Assembly (NCBI GenBank): GCA_026393115.1
Contig: JAPLAU010000006.1
Span: 1 to 64,000, forward strand
DNA: 64,000 nucleotides
Direction of reading: 5' to 3'
Source of the DNA: Actinomycetota bacterium
GTDB taxonomy: Bacteria; Actinomycetota; Actinomycetes; S36-B12; CAIYMF01
Positions within the stretch are counted from its first letter, which is position 1. The number at the start of each line of letters is the position of its first letter. Below are positions 38,963-46,455 of this stretch, in pieces. The notes under the pieces are model-generated. The model did no database searches and was not told the DNA's origin. It saw nothing but the letters and a program-made list of their open reading frames with translations. Both the position numbers and the translations under genes were made by a program.

Positions 38963-39934
38963 CTACGAGGGGACGCGAGTAAACAGAACATCGGTGTCCC
39001 ATCGCGCAAACCCCAGCGACTCGTACACCTTGATGGCGTTGGTGTTGCGCGCGTCGACGTAGAGCATCGCTTGGTCGAGTCCGCGCGATCGGAGGTGCAC
39101 CAGCCCCGCCACCGTGAGCGACCGCCCGAGGCTCTTGCGCTGCCAGTCGGGGTCGACTCCGACCACGAAGACCTCTCCCAGTTGTGCGTGTCCGTGTCCG
39201 TGTCCGTGGTTGTCGCTTCCGTGCACCTTGGTCCAGTGGAACCCGGCGATCTGCTCGTCAACGCCGGTGCCCGTCACAGCCAACAGGAAACCTGTCGGAT
39301 CGAACCACGGCTCGCGCATGCGCAGATGGAGATCGTCGAGAGTCCAGCGCCCCTGATCGGGGTGGTTCTCGAAAGCGCGGGCATTGACTACCACCCAGGC
39401 ATCGTCGTCGTGGCCGGGCTCGAAGGCGCGAATGCGCACGCCTTCGGGAAGTACCAAACGCGGAAGTGCCGCCGACAGTGAACGCCGCATCTGCCAGAGC
39501 ACGCGTGTCGATGTGAACCCCATCGAGCCGGCCAGGTGCGCTGATGCCGTGCTCTCACCGTGAGCCCACAGCCGCATGTGGCCTTCGGAACACCGATCAA
39601 TGGTTGCCTGCACCAAACTCCGACCGATTCCTTGCCGGCGAAACTGCGGATGTACCGCGAGTTGGGCAACCGGCCCCGCGACCTCATCGGTGGAATCGAA
39701 GTGTGCGTACCCCACGAGTTGAGCTGCTGCATCGGAGTTCGATCGGTTCCACGTCAGCAGGTGGCGAGCGCCCACATCTCCACCGCGCCGGATGTGTAGA
39801 AGGGCGTGTTCATCCAAGGGTCGAACCCCATCAGCGTCAGTGACCTGTTCGATTAGAGAAAGTACCGCGTGCACGTCGTCGTGCTCGAGGTCGTAGACGT
39901 CGTCGAGCCAGCGTTCGTCGCCAGCCGTCGTCAC
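38963..39934 (-). CDS. mshD: Mycothiol acetyltransferase
   Basis: A 323-residue tandem GNAT protein. The two acetyl-CoA motifs are [15 protein letters not shown] (first half) and [16 protein letters not shown] (second half). It acetylates Cys-GlcN-Ins in the last step of mycothiol synthesis. The GTG overlaps the glnR stop (GTGA), the same order as in mycobacteria. A His-Gly repeat (HGHGHGH) sits between the beta-strands of the second domain, coded by 6-base repeats at 39187-39209. Confidence 0.9.
39187..39209. repeat. Short 6-base tandem repeat inside mshD
   Basis: CGTGTC occurs three times plus a partial copy, coding for a His-Gly run in a surface loop of MshD. Slippage could change the loop length in multiples of two residues. 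Confidence 0.8.
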
Positions 39935-40671
39935 AGCCGTGACGCAGTCGCGGGCGCTTCGAGCTGCTCGTCATCGCCGAGTGTCGCGAGCGTTGCCTCA
40001 TCTGTTTTTTGCGGAACAAACCGGTAGCCCACGTTACGTACGGTGCCGATGAGTGACTCGTGTTCGACGCCGAGTTTGGCGCGCAGTCGACGCACATGAA
40101 CGTCAACGGTGCGTGTGCCTCCGAAGTAGTCGTAGCCCCAGACTTCCTGCAACAACTGCGCTCGCGAGAACACGCGACCGGGGTGCTGAGCCAAGAACTT
40201 GAGCAGTTCGAATTCCTTGAAAGTGAGGTCGAGAGCCCGACCGCGCAGACGTGCGGTGTAACTGTGCTCGTCGATCACCACATCACCGCTGCGGATTTCA
40301 CCACTTACCTCATCGTCGACAACCAGTCGTGCGATAGCCAGTCGCAGGCGGGCGTCGAGTTCGGCCGGGCCGGCCGACTCGAGGACGAAGTCATCGATAC
40401 CCCAGTCGGAGGAGACGCCGACAAGCCCACCCTCGGTGGTGACCAGTAGCAGGGGAATGTCAATTCCGGTAGTGCGAATCAGCCGACACAGACTGCGCGC
40501 GCCGGCTAAGTCGCGACGACCGTCAACGAGTAGCGCGTCGGCCGAAGGTGCATCGAGGAGTGCGCTTGCCTCAGCTGGCAGCACACGGACGTGGTGGCTG
40601 AGCAGGCCAAGTGAAGGAATCACCGTGGTGGAGGCGTCAAGGGTCGAGGTGAGCAGCAGAAGCGTCGACAT
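39931..40671 (-). CDS. glnR: GlnR-like OmpR-family transcriptional regulator
   Basis: A 246-residue regulator with a receiver-like N-terminal half and a winged-helix C-terminal half ([43 protein letters not shown]). The receiver half lacks a clear acidic pocket pattern, as expected of GlnR, which acts without a cognate kinase. GlnR controls nitrogen assimilation genes in actinobacteria. Location before mshD supports the name. GGAGG lies 4 bases before the ATG. Confidence 0.78.
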
Positions 40672-40718: not shown

Positions 40719-41582
40719 GTGAAGTCCTCAGCCGCCGGTGTTCCCTCAAACCCTCGCGAGGGGCGGTTACTGACGACTGACGGAGTCGATATTTGTGCGA
40801 CTTATCGGCCAGCTCCGCAGGGTTTCCCGCACGATCCGGTGATCGTTGTTGGGCATGGATTCACTGGATTTCGCGCTAAGGCCGACAATTTGCGCATTGC
40901 TGAACGTCTCAACCAGCACCTCGCAGTTGTCGACCTTGACTACCGCGGACATGGTTCATCGGGGGGCACCAGTTCGCTCGGAATGCGCGAAGTGCTCGAC
41001 CTCGATGCGGCCATCGCTTGGGCACGTGATCAAGGGCATCAGAAGGTGGTGAGCCTTGGTTTTTCGATGGGATCGGCCATCGCGGTGCGTCAGGCAGCAC
41101 TCACGCGCACAACTGACCGAGGACCCTTGGCGCTGACCGCCGAGAACGCCCCTGACGCGGTGGTGTCAGTCAGTGGCACTGCGTTCTGGTTTTACCGTGG
41201 AACGGCGCCGATGCGACTCGTGCATCGCGCCGTATCAACTCCCGTCGGTCGCGCCGTGCTTGCGCGCGTCGCACACACGCGAGTCGACGTCGGCGACTGG
41301 GAAGCAGAAGAGCTCGGCTACAGCCCGGAAGAAGCCGCTGCGTACCTTGCCCCGATTCCCTTCCTGTTGGTGCACGGTGACGCCGATACCTACTTTCCGT
41401 TGGAACACCCAGAAGCCGTGCATCGAGGCGCTGTTCAGGGTGCTCGCGACCGAGGATTTGAGCCCAAAATCGATCTGTGGATCGAACCAGGTTTCGCGCA
41501 TGCGGAGGCCGCGGTCGACGATGAGTTACTCGACCGCATCTGCGCGTGGGCACTGTCGATGGCCGGTGGCGAAACGTCGTGA
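40719..41582 (+). CDS. Alpha/beta hydrolase
   Basis: A 287-residue alpha/beta hydrolase: VVGHGFTGFRAK (oxyanion), nucleophile Ser in GFSMGSAIAV, Asp in HGDADTYFP and His in PGFAHAEAA. No signal peptide. The substrate is unknown. The GTG start lies 47 bases from the divergent glnR start, with GATAGT 5 bases before it. It overlaps the thioredoxin-like gene by 4 bases (GTGA), suggesting a link to thiol chemistry such as thioester hydrolysis, but that is only inference. Confidence 0.8.
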   Translation: MKSSAAGVPSNPREGRLLTTDGVDICATYRPAPQGFPHDPVIVVGHGFTGFRAKADNLRIAERLNQHLAVVDLDYRGHGSSGGTSSLGMREVLDLDAAIAWARDQGHQKVVSLGFSMGSAIAVRQAALTRTTDRGPLALTAENAPDAVVSVSGTAFWFYRGTAPMRLVHRAVSTPVGRAVLARVAHTRVDVGDWEAEELGYSPEEAAAYLAPIPFLLVHGDADTYFPLEHPEAVHRGAVQGARDRGFEPKIDLWIEPGFAHAEAAVDDELLDRICAWALSMAGGETS

Positions 41583-42016
41583 GCACCGGACTTGGAATCC
41601 TTGTGGTGGTGCTGATCGCTGCCACCGCGTTCGGGTTGTATCGCCGTTTCACCGACGGCCACATCAAGGGCGTCGACTCGGTGCCTGACGCGCCGACCCA
41701 TGACGGTGAGGTGTTGAGCGCTGCCGATATCGGCGCACCTTTGGGTGAACGCGCGACTCTGGTTCAGTTCTCGACAGCCTTCTGCCAGCCCTGTCGTGCC
41801 GCGCGCCGCACGTTGGGTGAGGTAACGGGAATGGTTGAGGGGGTCACGCACGTCGAGATCGACGCTGAAGCGCATCTTGATCTTGTTCGCCGCCTTGATG
41901 TGATGCGTACGCCAACAATTCTGGTACTCGATTCAACCGGCCGTATTCGTCGTCGTGCGGTGGGCGCACCCCGAACCGCTGATGTGGTCGCCGCGCTCGG
42001 CGACGTCATCGACTAG
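41579..42016 (+). CDS. Membrane-anchored thioredoxin-like protein
   Basis: A 145-residue protein with one N-terminal membrane segment (about 5-22) and a thioredoxin fold carrying CQPC in STAFCQPCRAARR and the cis-proline in RTPTILVLD. It is probably exported and membrane-tethered, acting in thiol-disulfide exchange. The GTG start overlapping the hydrolase stop is chosen. In mycobacteria a thioredoxin (ThiX) is near glnR/mshD too. It precedes the leader peptide region. Confidence 0.85.
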   Translation: MSTGLGILVVVLIAATAFGLYRRFTDGHIKGVDSVPDAPTHDGEVLSAADIGAPLGERATLVQFSTAFCQPCRAARRTLGEVTGMVEGVTHVEIDAEAHLDLVRRLDVMRTPTILVLDSTGRIRRRAVGAPRTADVVAALGDVID

Positions 42017-42068: not shown

Positions 42069-42085
42069 TGTCCAGAATGTGGACA
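42069..42085 (+). promoter_or_regulatory. Palindromic operator candidate TGTCCA-N5-TGGACA
   Basis: A perfect 6-base inverted repeat with a 5-base spacer, centred about 48 bases before the predicted start of the leader transcript. The position suits an activator or repressor site. The binding protein is unknown. Confidence 0.45.
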
Positions 42086-42112
42086 GGTCTGTGAGACCGA
42101 GTCATTCCCACC

Positions 42113-42118
42113 TATCGT
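42113..42118 (+). promoter_or_regulatory. -10 element for a leaderless leader-peptide transcript
   Basis: TATCGT followed by exactly 6 bases and the ATG of the leader ORF at 42125. Confidence 0.5.
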
Positions 42119-42124
42119 TTGCTC

Positions 42125-42208
42125 ATGACCAGTCGCCAGCCTGCGCTTACCAAGCGCCGCACTGTCGACTTTGGACGCCTTGCGTCCGGCTCCTGTCACA
42201 TGCGCTGA
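42125..42208 (+). CDS. 27-residue leader peptide upstream of the DUF4395 gene
   Basis: The ORF begins MTSRQPALTKRRTVDFGRLA and ends SGSCHMR. The QPALTKRR-VD-R-AS pattern matches short actinobacterial peptides found before sulfur-metabolism genes, which carry one or more Cys codons near the end. Here one TGT (residue 24) lies just before the stop. A hairpin GGACGC-CTT-GCGTCC (42173-42187) lies inside the ORF and a terminator-like palindrome follows the stop by 7 bases. The natural reading is cysteine-dependent attenuation of the downstream genes. Confidence 0.65.
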   Translation: MTSRQPALTKRRTVDFGRLASGSCHMR

Positions 42209-42215
42209 CCGCGTG

Positions 42216-42240
42216 CCCACCGATCGGTGGGTTTGTCGTT
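42216..42240 (+). terminator. Attenuator-like hairpin CCCACC-GATC-GGTGGG with T-rich tail
   Basis: A perfect 6-bp stem with a 4-base loop followed by TTTGTCGTT. It stands between the leader stop (42208) and the DUF4395 start (42263), where a regulated terminator is expected. Confidence 0.6.
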
Positions 42241-42262
42241 CGTGCCCCTGACAGGAGACCTC

Positions 42263-42727
42263 ATGACTACCGCAACCCCTCAAACCCACGTTTCGCCGAC
42301 CACGCCGTCTGGAATCGATCCCCGCGGCCCTCGATTCGGTGCCGCTCTCACAGTCATCGCCCTCGTGATCGCACTGCTGGCCGGATCCAATGTTCTGGGC
42401 ACGGCGGTCATCGCCTGGCAAACTCTGGTCTTCGCCCTCGGTGCGTTCGTCGGCCTGAGTGCGCAGCCGTACGGAGTGCTCTACCGCAAGGTGGTGCGGC
42501 CGCGTCTGGGCCCGCCCGCCGAACTCGAAGACCCGGCACCGCCGCGATTCGCACAGCTCGTCGGCTTCCTCTTCGCTGTCGTCGGTCTGATCTCGTATCT
42601 GCTGGGTGCCACAGTTGTTGGCCAGGTAGCAATCGGGCTCGCCCTCGCGGCCGCTTTCCTCAATGCTGCTTTCAACTTCTGCCTCGGGTGTGAGATCTAC
42701 CTCGTAGCGCGTAGATTGCGTTCATGA
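42263..42727 (+). CDS. DUF4395 membrane protein
   Basis: A 154-residue membrane protein with about four hydrophobic segments and the family signature GIDPRGPRFGAALT near the N-terminus and FCLGCEIY near the end. DUF4395 proteins usually neighbour thioredoxins and sulfurtransferases in actinobacteria, as here. AGGAG lies 6 bases before the ATG; an earlier GTG at 42227 lies inside the hairpin region and is rejected. It overlaps the DsrE-like gene by ATGA. Confidence 0.82.
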   Translation: MTTATPQTHVSPTTPSGIDPRGPRFGAALTVIALVIALLAGSNVLGTAVIAWQTLVFALGAFVGLSAQPYGVLYRKVVRPRLGPPAELEDPAPPRFAQLVGFLFAVVGLISYLLGATVVGQVAIGLALAAAFLNAAFNFCLGCEIYLVARRLRS

Positions 42728-43089
42728 CCCGATCCCTTGTTATTAAGTGCACGACTGGCACCGACGAGAATGTCGAGCGCGCATCGCAGGCGTTCACGGT
42801 GGCTGTCACCGCAGCAACGGCTGGAGCGCCCGTCTCGGTGTGGCTTACCGGTGATGCGGTGTGGCTTGCGGTGCCGGGCCGGGCTGAGGACGTGGTGCTC
42901 GAAGGTGGAGCTCCGTTCGCCGAACTCCGCGACGCTGTTCTCGCACTAGGAAGTCTCACGGTGTGCACTCAGTGCGCGATGCGTCGCAAGCTTGAACAGT
43001 CTGACCTCATCGAGGGAGTGCGCATTGCTGGTGCCCCCACGTTCGTTGAGGAAGCACTGGCCGAAGGTGCGCAAGCACTTATCTACTAA
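42724..43089 (+). CDS. DsrE-family sulfur-relay-like protein
   Basis: A 121-residue soluble protein of the DsrE/TusD fold (SLVIKCTTGTDENVERASQA at the N-terminus) with a CxxC-like TVCTQCAMRR near residue 80. DsrE proteins carry persulfide sulfur in relay or sulfur-oxidation systems. It overlaps the DUF4395 gene (ATGA); TAGATT also lies 6 bases before the ATG, so it may have its own leaderless start as well. Confidence 0.78.
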   Translation: MTRSLVIKCTTGTDENVERASQAFTVAVTAATAGAPVSVWLTGDAVWLAVPGRAEDVVLEGGAPFAELRDAVLALGSLTVCTQCAMRRKLEQSDLIEGVRIAGAPTFVEEALAEGAQALIY

Positions 43090-43119: not shown

Positions 43120-43125
43120 GTGGGA

Positions 43126-43653
43126 ATGACTGAAGACGCAGCGCCCAAGGTCGCAGAGTCGCTCGTCCCGCTGTCGTGGCTGATTGGCCGCTGGGAGGGA
43201 GCCGGTGTGGGCGGTTACCCGACGGTTCCTGAATTTCGATTCGGCCAAGAGATCATCGTCACTCACGACGGCCGTCCTTTCTTGACGCACTGGTCGCGCT
43301 CGTGGTTGCTTGACGACGACGGCAACAAGGTGCGCCCACTGGCGACTGAGACCGGCTTCTGGCGCCCAGCACCTGATCACCGAGTCGAACTGTTGCTCGC
43401 ACACCCCACCGGTTACGCGGAAGTGTGGGTCGGCGAGGTCACCGTCAATTCGATTCAGGATGCGCGCATCACGGGCGCGAAAGCAGAGTTGCGCAGCGAT
43501 GTCGTGGCGCGCACTGCGACGGCGAAGGACTACACGGCCGGTCTCCGACTGTACGGGTTGGTCGATGGTGACTTGCTGTGGGCTTTCGACATGGCTGCGG
43601 TCGGTCACCCCCTCACCTCGCATCTTTCGGCGAAACTCAAGGCGGTTTCATGA
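43126..43653 (+). CDS. Nitrobindin-like heme-binding beta-barrel (FABP/DUF1794 family)
   Basis: A 175-residue beta-barrel protein with the nitrobindin entry motif LIGRWEGAGVGGYPTV and a late HPLTSHL with a possible heme-ligand His. The family binds ferric heme and scavenges or isomerises peroxynitrite; the Mtb orthologue lies in the same neighbourhood. The ATG at 43126 is chosen because of the -10 spacing. It overlaps the fur gene by ATGA. Confidence 0.85.
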   Translation: MTEDAAPKVAESLVPLSWLIGRWEGAGVGGYPTVPEFRFGQEIIVTHDGRPFLTHWSRSWLLDDDGNKVRPLATETGFWRPAPDHRVELLLAHPTGYAEVWVGEVTVNSIQDARITGAKAELRSDVVARTATAKDYTAGLRLYGLVDGDLLWAFDMAAVGHPLTSHLSAKLKAVS

Positions 43654-45141: not shown

Positions 45142-46455
45142 TCATTTGTCGTCGCGCAGACCCAGACTGGTGAGTTCGCGCATGAGGGCCGCGGTGTCGG
45201 CGGGTTCGACGTTCTGCTCACCGTCGTCGTCGGTCGATTGGAAGGGCTCGGCACTCGGCGGAGGCAATTGGCTAAACGTCGAGGGCAGCGGCTCGGCGGT
45301 GACTGCAGGTTCGAAGGTCAGGGCCGGCTCAGCAGTCAGCGGGATCGACTCAACGATCGGTTCGTACGGCGCCTGGTATTCAGGCGCTTCGATAACAGGC
45401 GCTTGGATGAAGGCAGCCGGCTCGACCTCAGTGAAGCTGGGAGAATCGAAACTCTGGGAATCGAAGCTCGGGGAATCGTCGTAGACCGGTGCAGATTCCT
45501 CGGAGTCCTCCGTGACCAAGTGCAGCGGAAGTACTTCAGCCAACGGCTCGAAGGGGTCATCGACCAGCGAGGGGAAACCCGTTGGTCGGGGGTCGTGCAG
45601 AAGATCAGTGGCCGTCGTCACGAGTCCCTCTGCCGCCAAGCCGAGAATGATGTCAGCGGCTTCAAACAGGGTGTAGCCGCAGTCGTCGGCGATGTCGACC
45701 AAGGTGCGCAGTCCGTCGACGTAGCCGAGTACGGTGCGTTCGCTGGAACTGAGGGTGGCGTGCGGCACAGTTCCTGTGGGCAGCGGCACGACGTCAGCGC
45801 CGCCGATTTCGTCGACCACTATCGGCCATTGACGTTGGCGCGCGTGTGCCTGTTCGATCAAATCGGTTACGTCGGTGAAGGGTGCCAGATCGGTGCGGGT
45901 GCGGGCCCCATTGCGGAACCAGTGGTTCGTGACGGTCCAGCCCAAGAGGTCGGCGAGCATGTCGCGCTGTTGTTCGAGTGCGAATGCCTCAATGACCCGC
46001 CGATTGACTAGGCGCAGATGCACAAGTACTTCGCCGAGGCGGGCGGTATGCATTTCGCTGCGCTGCAATTCAAGGGCTGCGTTGAGTTGATCGGGGCTGA
46101 TGGCTCCAGCCGTGACGAGTCGCACACCCAAGAGGGGGCGGCGGCCGGGTACCGAGGCTGCATAGACCTGTCCATCGCGGAACCAGACCAGACCTTCGTC
46201 ACCGGAGGCGTTCGTGATGGTCAGGCAGCCGCTGGCTTCTTGAGCAGCAAATCCGAGGATGATTCCCTCAGCATCCGAGGGGGCTGGGTGCGCTTGGGGA
46301 GCGTCAACTGTGACGCCATCGAAACCAGGGTCGGGGGCGTCAGACTGCCCGGCGGAAGACTGAGCAGCATCACCAGCAGGAGGCCCAACAGGAGAATCGC
46401 TCATCAGTTGCTCGTCTTCTGGCCACGGCGCGGCTCGAGCCTGAGGTTCGAACAC
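45142..46455 (-). CDS. DUF4388-domain protein with acidic low-complexity tail
   Basis: A 437-residue soluble protein: a Pro/Ala/Ser-rich start, a DUF4388 domain (about 65-175; GFAAQEASGCLTITNASG), a winged-helix-like middle (VLGYVDGLRTLVDIADDCGY) and a long acidic, Pro/Glu-rich C-terminus (about 305-420) with FDS-repeat-like SPSFDSQSFDSPSF. DUF4388 (PatA N-terminal type) proteins are often linked to motility or polarity but the role here is open. GTG start with GGAGGG 8 bases upstream; an ATG at 46404 is an alternative. A promoter lies about 100 bases upstream. Confidence 0.78.
   Translation of the reverse strand: MFEPQARAAPWPEDEQLMSDSPVGPPAGDAAQSSAGQSDAPDPGFDGVTVDAPQAHPAPSDAEGIILGFAAQEASGCLTITNASGDEGLVWFRDGQVYAASVPGRRPLLGVRLVTAGAISPDQLNAALELQRSEMHTARLGEVLVHLRLVNRRVIEAFALEQQRDMLADLLGWTVTNHWFRNGARTRTDLAPFTDVTDLIEQAHARQRQWPIVVDEIGGADVVPLPTGTVPHATLSSSERTVLGYVDGLRTLVDIADDCGYTLFEAADIILGLAAEGLVTTATDLLHDPRPTGFPSLVDDPFEPLAEVLPLHLVTEDSEESAPVYDDSPSFDSQSFDSPSFTEVEPAAFIQAPVIEAPEYQAPYEPIVESIPLTAEPALTFEPAVTAEPLPSTFSQLPPPSAEPFQSTDDDGEQNVEPADTAALMRELTSLGLRDDK

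Follow-up and report, generated by a model that had tools for sequence, protein, structure and literature searches.

The closest described system is the Ms5788A family of Cys-rich leader peptides (NF042933), leaderless short ORFs that precede MSMEG_5788-5790 in M. smegmatis and cysA2 in M. tuberculosis (PMC4633059); other papers cite Canestrari et al. 2020 for the Ms5788A-type leader. The orthologous small ORF in M. smegmatis, described as cysA2/Msmeg_5788, shows ribosome occupancy (PMC4633059), and according to reviews M. smegmatis leaders of this type act by cysteine-dependent translational attenuation (PMC9031893, PMC13236596). In a microarray table (PMC5445863), MSMEG_5788 is annotated as integral membrane protein, followed by MSMEG_5789 (sulfurtransferase) and MSMEG_5790 (SseC). 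Two further systems are comparable: (i) the leaders of cys operons in Mycobacterium, P. acnes and B. longum (Seliverstov et al. 2005, PMC1262725), likewise short ORFs whose Cys codons lie close to the stop, with no conserved terminator, and (ii) uORFC-8-2 upstream of cysS in Rhodobacterales (PMC8632094), a ribosome-mediated attenuator with Cys codons, which differs in belonging to another phylum, in carrying an intrinsic terminator at its end and in the dominance of UGC, whereas UGU is the anchor codon in the family studied here.

In the window (the whole stretch of 64,000 nt analyzed), a leader ORF of this kind and its predicted promoter are formed by the following elements:

42069-42085, no strand assigned: perfect inverted repeat TGTCCA-GAATG-TGGACA, about 40-56 nt 5' of the presumed start
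42113-42118, + strand: -10 element TATCGT of a leaderless-type promoter, 6 nt 5' of the leader ATG (42125)
42125-42208, + strand: leader ORF of 27 codons, MTSRQPALTKRRTVDFGRLASGSCHMR followed by the stop, matching NF042933 and kept across Actinobacteria
42194-42196, + strand: lone Cys codon TGT, the presumed sensor

The repeat, -10 element, ORF, Cys codon and hairpin (see below) named in the initial annotation were all found again at or close to their annotated positions. The spacing of the -10 element corresponds to the leaderless sequence pattern (6-7 nt before the start codon), suggesting that transcription starts at the leader AUG and yields a leaderless mRNA. In 59 of 62 related leaders, a TAnnnT motif directly precedes the start (background 1.4 %), a proportion somewhat inflated by a start choice that favoured -10-like elements. 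The inverted repeat is a possible operator; among 232 loci, it occurs only in copies of the window locus and in the sister species.

The leader peptide matches NF042933 with an E-value of 2.8e-5 (23.7 bits) and NF042934 with 0.027, the latter under the curated cut-off. Since its score also lies below the curated, strict equivalog cut-off of NF042933 (45 bits), the window leader is filed as a homologous variant and not as an equivalog. It also differs from the Ms5788A family in having one Cys codon instead of the run of several Cys codons that is a strict trait of NF042933; at most one Cys is found in 11 of 130 related leaders. Leaders from loci of the Mycobacteriaceae/Nocardiaceae type, the Streptomyces type and the same family reach the NF042933 cut-off or fall just short of it. 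A profile built from 31 leader rows, the window peptide among them, retrieves the window leader from its own genome at E 2.7e-12 and a related leader from 302 of the 394 genomes sampled in the class.

Conservation of the peptide in relatives, on which the initial annotation had staked its reading, is evident from the 31-leader alignment: the core of all leaders aligns gap-free, with R11, R12 and D15 invariant and R18 and C24 present in at least 90 %, and the window leader shares the LTKRRxVDxxRxxxxxC core with the Ms5788A family. Within KRRxVD, the two Arg are encoded by four to five codons and the Asp by two; invariant residues despite varied codons argue for conservation of the peptide and not of the RNA alone. 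The leader peptide of the sister species is 93 % identical. The assignment as leaderless cysteine-type leader peptide is thus borne out by homologues upstream of the cysA2/Msmeg_5788 locus and by retention in relatives, and the window leader is a single-Cys variant homologous to a known cysteine attenuator.

To judge from its relatives, the window genome belongs to a Nanopelagicales-like order of freshwater actinobacteria. The leader is part of a run of genes in one direction (thioredoxin-like, leader, DUF4395, DsrE, nitrobindin-like, Fur-family, YgfZ-like), including:

41546-42016, + strand: thioredoxin-like gene (Pfam; start codon provisional), located 5' of DUF4395 in most loci
42263-42727, + strand: DUF4395 membrane protein (PF14340; Pfam E 2.4e-43), first regulated gene
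42724-43089, + strand: DsrE/DsrF-like protein (Pfam E 1.6e-10), start overlapping the DUF4395 stop (ATGA)
43120-43653, + strand: THAP4/nitrobindin-like heme-binding protein (Pfam E 2e-50; start codon provisional), neighbourhood conserved

Just upstream (38963-40671), a thiol-related neighbourhood encodes MshD, the mycothiol synthase (E 1.5e-94), together with a response-regulator-like protein of the winged-helix type. A protein encoded at 45142-46455 carries an MshE-type cyclic di-GMP-binding motif, scoring just above the cut-off.

The initial annotation regarded DUF4395 as an extension of the set of genes under such control. This has to be abandoned: DUF4395 is commonly the first gene behind the leader, as in the Mycolicibacterium locus L093 (leader, DUF4395, sulfurtransferase, SseC, nitrobindin); the annotation of MSMEG_5788 as membrane protein points the same way, and cysA2 follows leader and DUF4395 in 42 of 59 leader loci, which derive from a DUF4395 survey and hence contain DUF4395 by construction. 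In Streptomyces-like genomes, the leader is located directly before cysA2. The window leader occupies the usual position between the thioredoxin-like gene and DUF4395 and/or cysA2-sseC, here with cysA2-sseC absent. No cysA2 ortholog was found in the window genome (the best match, elsewhere, is 32 % identical), and sseC is likewise gone in the genus. The dsrE gene is encoded on the opposite strand in most relatives, but co-directionally in the window's genus (L001/L002). Relative to known leader loci, only the missing cysA2-sseC and the co-directional dsrE in the operon are new. Presence of leader and of cysA2 are strongly associated (42/17/1/41, Fisher 2e-13), with too few independent changes on the tree for a phylogenetic test and hence for a causal claim.

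Several further arrangements were observed. Comparison of L001/L002 with L008, L012, L019 and others indicates an inversion of dsrE into the operon; L124, L126 and L129, which have a co-directional dsrE without a convincing leader, apparently represent a separate case. In L083/L113 and L115, a peroxiredoxin-like gene replaces cysA2-sseC behind leader and DUF4395. The loci L041, L043, L046, L091, L095 and L100 are titled Bifidobacterium breve/Streptomyces griseus and look like mislabelled freshwater actinobacterial bins.

A connection between the leader and translation of DUF4395 is provided by complementarity between the following elements:

42188-42198, + strand: anti-Shine-Dalgarno (anti-SD) segment GGCTCCTGTCA in the leader, overlapping the Cys codon
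42215-42232, + strand: apical hairpin GCCCACC-GATC-GGTGGGT with T-rich tail, the tip of the SD-sequestering hairpin
42249-42257, + strand: Shine-Dalgarno (SD) region TGACAGGAG of DUF4395

Together with its neighbours (CTCCTGTCA), the Cys codon is exactly complementary to the SD region, i.e., 42190-42198 is the exact 9-nt complement of 42249-42257, a relation missed in the initial annotation. Folding of the leader-to-DUF4395 RNA, which that annotation had proposed as a check, yields a stable structure (-69.7 kcal/mol, z = -5.6, for the 151-nt RNA from the leader AUG) with a long hairpin, in which leader positions 42188-42198 are predicted to pair with 42249-42260, so that the SD is buried. In the free RNA, the SD has a predicted accessibility of 0.00 at 42250-42257 and 0.14 as mean over 42252-42258, which rises to 0.54 when a 30-nt stretch around the Cys codon is blocked.

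Predicted SD accessibility in the window is lower than in 100 recodings that preserve the peptide with synonymous codons (p=0.01, the lowest value this test allows); SD pairing exceeds that of recodings in both the window species and the sister species. At 12 loci of the same family, SD accessibility averages 0.07, compared with 0.31 in recodings and with 0.44 if a stalled ribosome is placed on the RNA (Wilcoxon p=5e-4), and across all 54 loci it is 0.24 vs 0.37 in recodings (Wilcoxon p=2e-6). In many members of the family, the offset of the anti-SD from the last Cys codon differs, which argues for function over mere shared descent. The helix of Cys codon and SD in the window is among the strongest found and ranks beside those of the mycobacterial/nocardial poly-Cys leaders (CTGTTGTTGTT with GACAACAACAGGAG), whose Cys codons pair with the SD region likewise, matching published descriptions of translational attenuation; complementarity of Cys codons to the SD region is a further feature shared with the Ms5788A family. 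In silico, one synonymous change of the Ser codon barely raises SD accessibility (0.14 to 0.21). In the footprint model, the SD opens with the A site anywhere from position 20 to 28, the stop included, so that a Cys-specific signal requires a real pause.

This pairing is not universal. Over 120 leaders, the mean score of the helix between Cys codon and SD (10.5) is below that of shuffled sequences (11.1), indicating a clade-specific feature, and in several other clades no SD pairing with the leader was found. Other clades pair the Cys codon with the leader's own 5' part. A helix between the leader 5' end and the anchor Cys region was observed in L172-L177, L193, L196 and L197 (CGACAGAGC), and the same type in L142, L144 and L148 (GCGACAG) as well as in L064, L208 and L209 (CGACACA). 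It shows compensatory change next to a UGU that stays constant, and it occurs in different peptide reading frames. This helix may represent an alternative structure of the switch.

From the CCCACC/GGTGGG hairpin and its T-rich tail, the initial annotation had deduced a transcriptional attenuator with a terminator. On such a reading, the hairpin would be an intrinsic terminator relieved by ribosome stalling at the Cys codon. The window does contain one terminator-like site at 42215-42232 (shuffled sequences, 0.1 +/- 0.3), but in the sister species (L002) the T-tract GGTGGGTTTGTCG is degraded to GGTGGGCGTCCG while hairpin stem and SD pairing are kept. Moreover, terminator-like sites occur at chance level in related leaders (3 of 62 vs 2.5 expected), a previous comparative analysis of mycobacterial cys leaders detected no conserved terminators behind them (PMC1262725), and the stem belongs to the longer hairpin ending in the SD. 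The hairpin at 42215-42232 is therefore probably not a terminator; termination as main mechanism is dismissed on account of the lost T-tract and the chance-level sites, leaving transcription attenuation unlikely, and a translational mechanism explains the locus better.

Transcription could also be controlled by Rho or polarity, if the untranslated spacer RNA served as Rho site shielded by translation of the leader. Rho-dependent termination was suggested for the mycobacterial cys leaders on weak evidence (PMC1262725), and spacers of relatives are C-rich; yet such control does not account for an SD that pairs with the leader more than in synonymous recodings, and it is SD sequestration that is supported in the window. 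Rho control is considered even less probable than a terminator, although it is not mutually exclusive with SD sequestration.

The preferred reading, assigned a probability of roughly 0.75, is that a cysteine-responsive translational attenuator governs DUF4395-dsrE by means of a leaderless start, sequestration of the SD, and its release by a pause at UGU. For this locus, computation shows the homology, the leaderless promoter, conservation at the peptide level, the SD pairing and the opening of the SD by a ribosome footprint. RNA polymerase would start at the leader AUG, and ribosomes would load on the leaderless mRNA and read the 27-codon peptide. By default, the Gly-Ser-Cys codons (GGCUCCUGUCA) would pair with the SD region of DUF4395 (UGACAGGAG), silencing DUF4395 along with dsrE, which is coupled to it in translation. 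Once charged tRNA-Cys becomes scarce, the ribosome would pause with the lone UGU codon in the A site and cover the anti-SD segment, setting the SD free. The cysteine signal, the pausing of the ribosome and the response of the operon are the steps that we infer. The leader thus very probably allows this freshwater actinobacterium to turn on a small sulfur/redox operon under cysteine shortage.

The presence of only one Cys codon and the absence of a cysA2 ortholog could also reflect decay, in which loss of cysA2-sseC was followed by loss of Cys codons, leaving a leader that regulates nothing; the nearest DUF4395 relatives, which lack both leader and cysA2 (gene tree, low support), would be in line with such a relic. 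However, the sister species retains the peptide, the leaderless promoter is intact, the anti-SD complementarity is among the strongest seen, and SD pairing surpasses recodings in both species, rendering a relic the least probable of these alternatives to translational attenuation.

In loci without a leader, a leaderless -10 element is found directly before DUF4395 in 19 of 43 cases, compared with 0 of 61 loci that have one; it looks as though DUF4395 had inherited the promoter when the leader was deleted. L032, L046, L048, L058, L063 and L074 are examples of loci without a leader.

The anchor Cys (core position 13) is encoded almost exclusively by TGT, with 123 TGT and 6 TGC at this position in the 130 leaders with -10 element (141 leaders in the fetched loci). 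In the same peptides, the Cys at core position 6 is encoded by TGC in 92 and TGT in 6 cases, and TGT accounts for 108 of 705 Cys codons (15 %) in neighbouring conserved genes. Among leaders with both Cys, 90 have TGC followed by TGT and one the reverse order (McNemar 7e-26); the p-values ignore remaining relatedness, with position 6 serving as internal control in the same genes. At the level of 80%-identity clusters, 39 have TGT and 4 TGC at the anchor. The TGC exceptions comprise L211, L228 and L229 (small genomes) as well as L150, L152 and L154 (poly-Cys, TGT at position 11). Base composition is rejected as cause by the ratio of 56:1 in loci of 68-80% GC and by the 15 % TGT in neighbouring genes.

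RNA pairing offers a second explanation. The third base of the anchor TGT is predicted to pair with A in 70 of 114 folded TGT leaders, the A being located in the SD region (as in the window) or in the leader 5' part (GACAG with CTGTC); in the latter helix, the pair next to it includes exchanges of C-G for G-C. In 38 of the 114, however, the third base is predicted to be unpaired or to face G, so that a C would pair at least as well, and replacing TGT by TGC in the window leaves predicted SD accessibility unchanged (0.143 vs 0.144). RNA pairing is thus insufficient as sole cause, while the predicted pairing with A suggests that a structural contribution to UGU choice remains. Persistence of TGT with a G partner or none makes a decoding constraint the better, but unproven, explanation. 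One may speculate, at less than even odds, that the switch reads a particular codon and not just the amino acid, with quick passage at the first Cys (UGC), a pause at UGU and aid by the nascent peptide: UGU would need wobble reading by tRNA-Cys GCA, while the invariant KRRxVD would reside in the exit tunnel. If true, such tuning by codon and nascent peptide would let a single Cys codon suffice, as in the window. The UGU bias looks unreported, as literature text searches, with Canestrari et al. 2020 outside their scope, retrieved no report of it.

For the family, the window adds a single-Cys leader whose regulatory anatomy was kept after loss of the sulfurtransferase genes and through which cysteine would control DUF4395 and DsrE. 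Of greater weight than this variant is the wider result, the UGU rule being the part worth following: a switch usually described as cysteine-counting displays a strict codon at one position and strict amino acids at four or five others, neither of which is predicted by a simple 'Cys supply' model, and why KRRxVD is conserved becomes a directly testable question.
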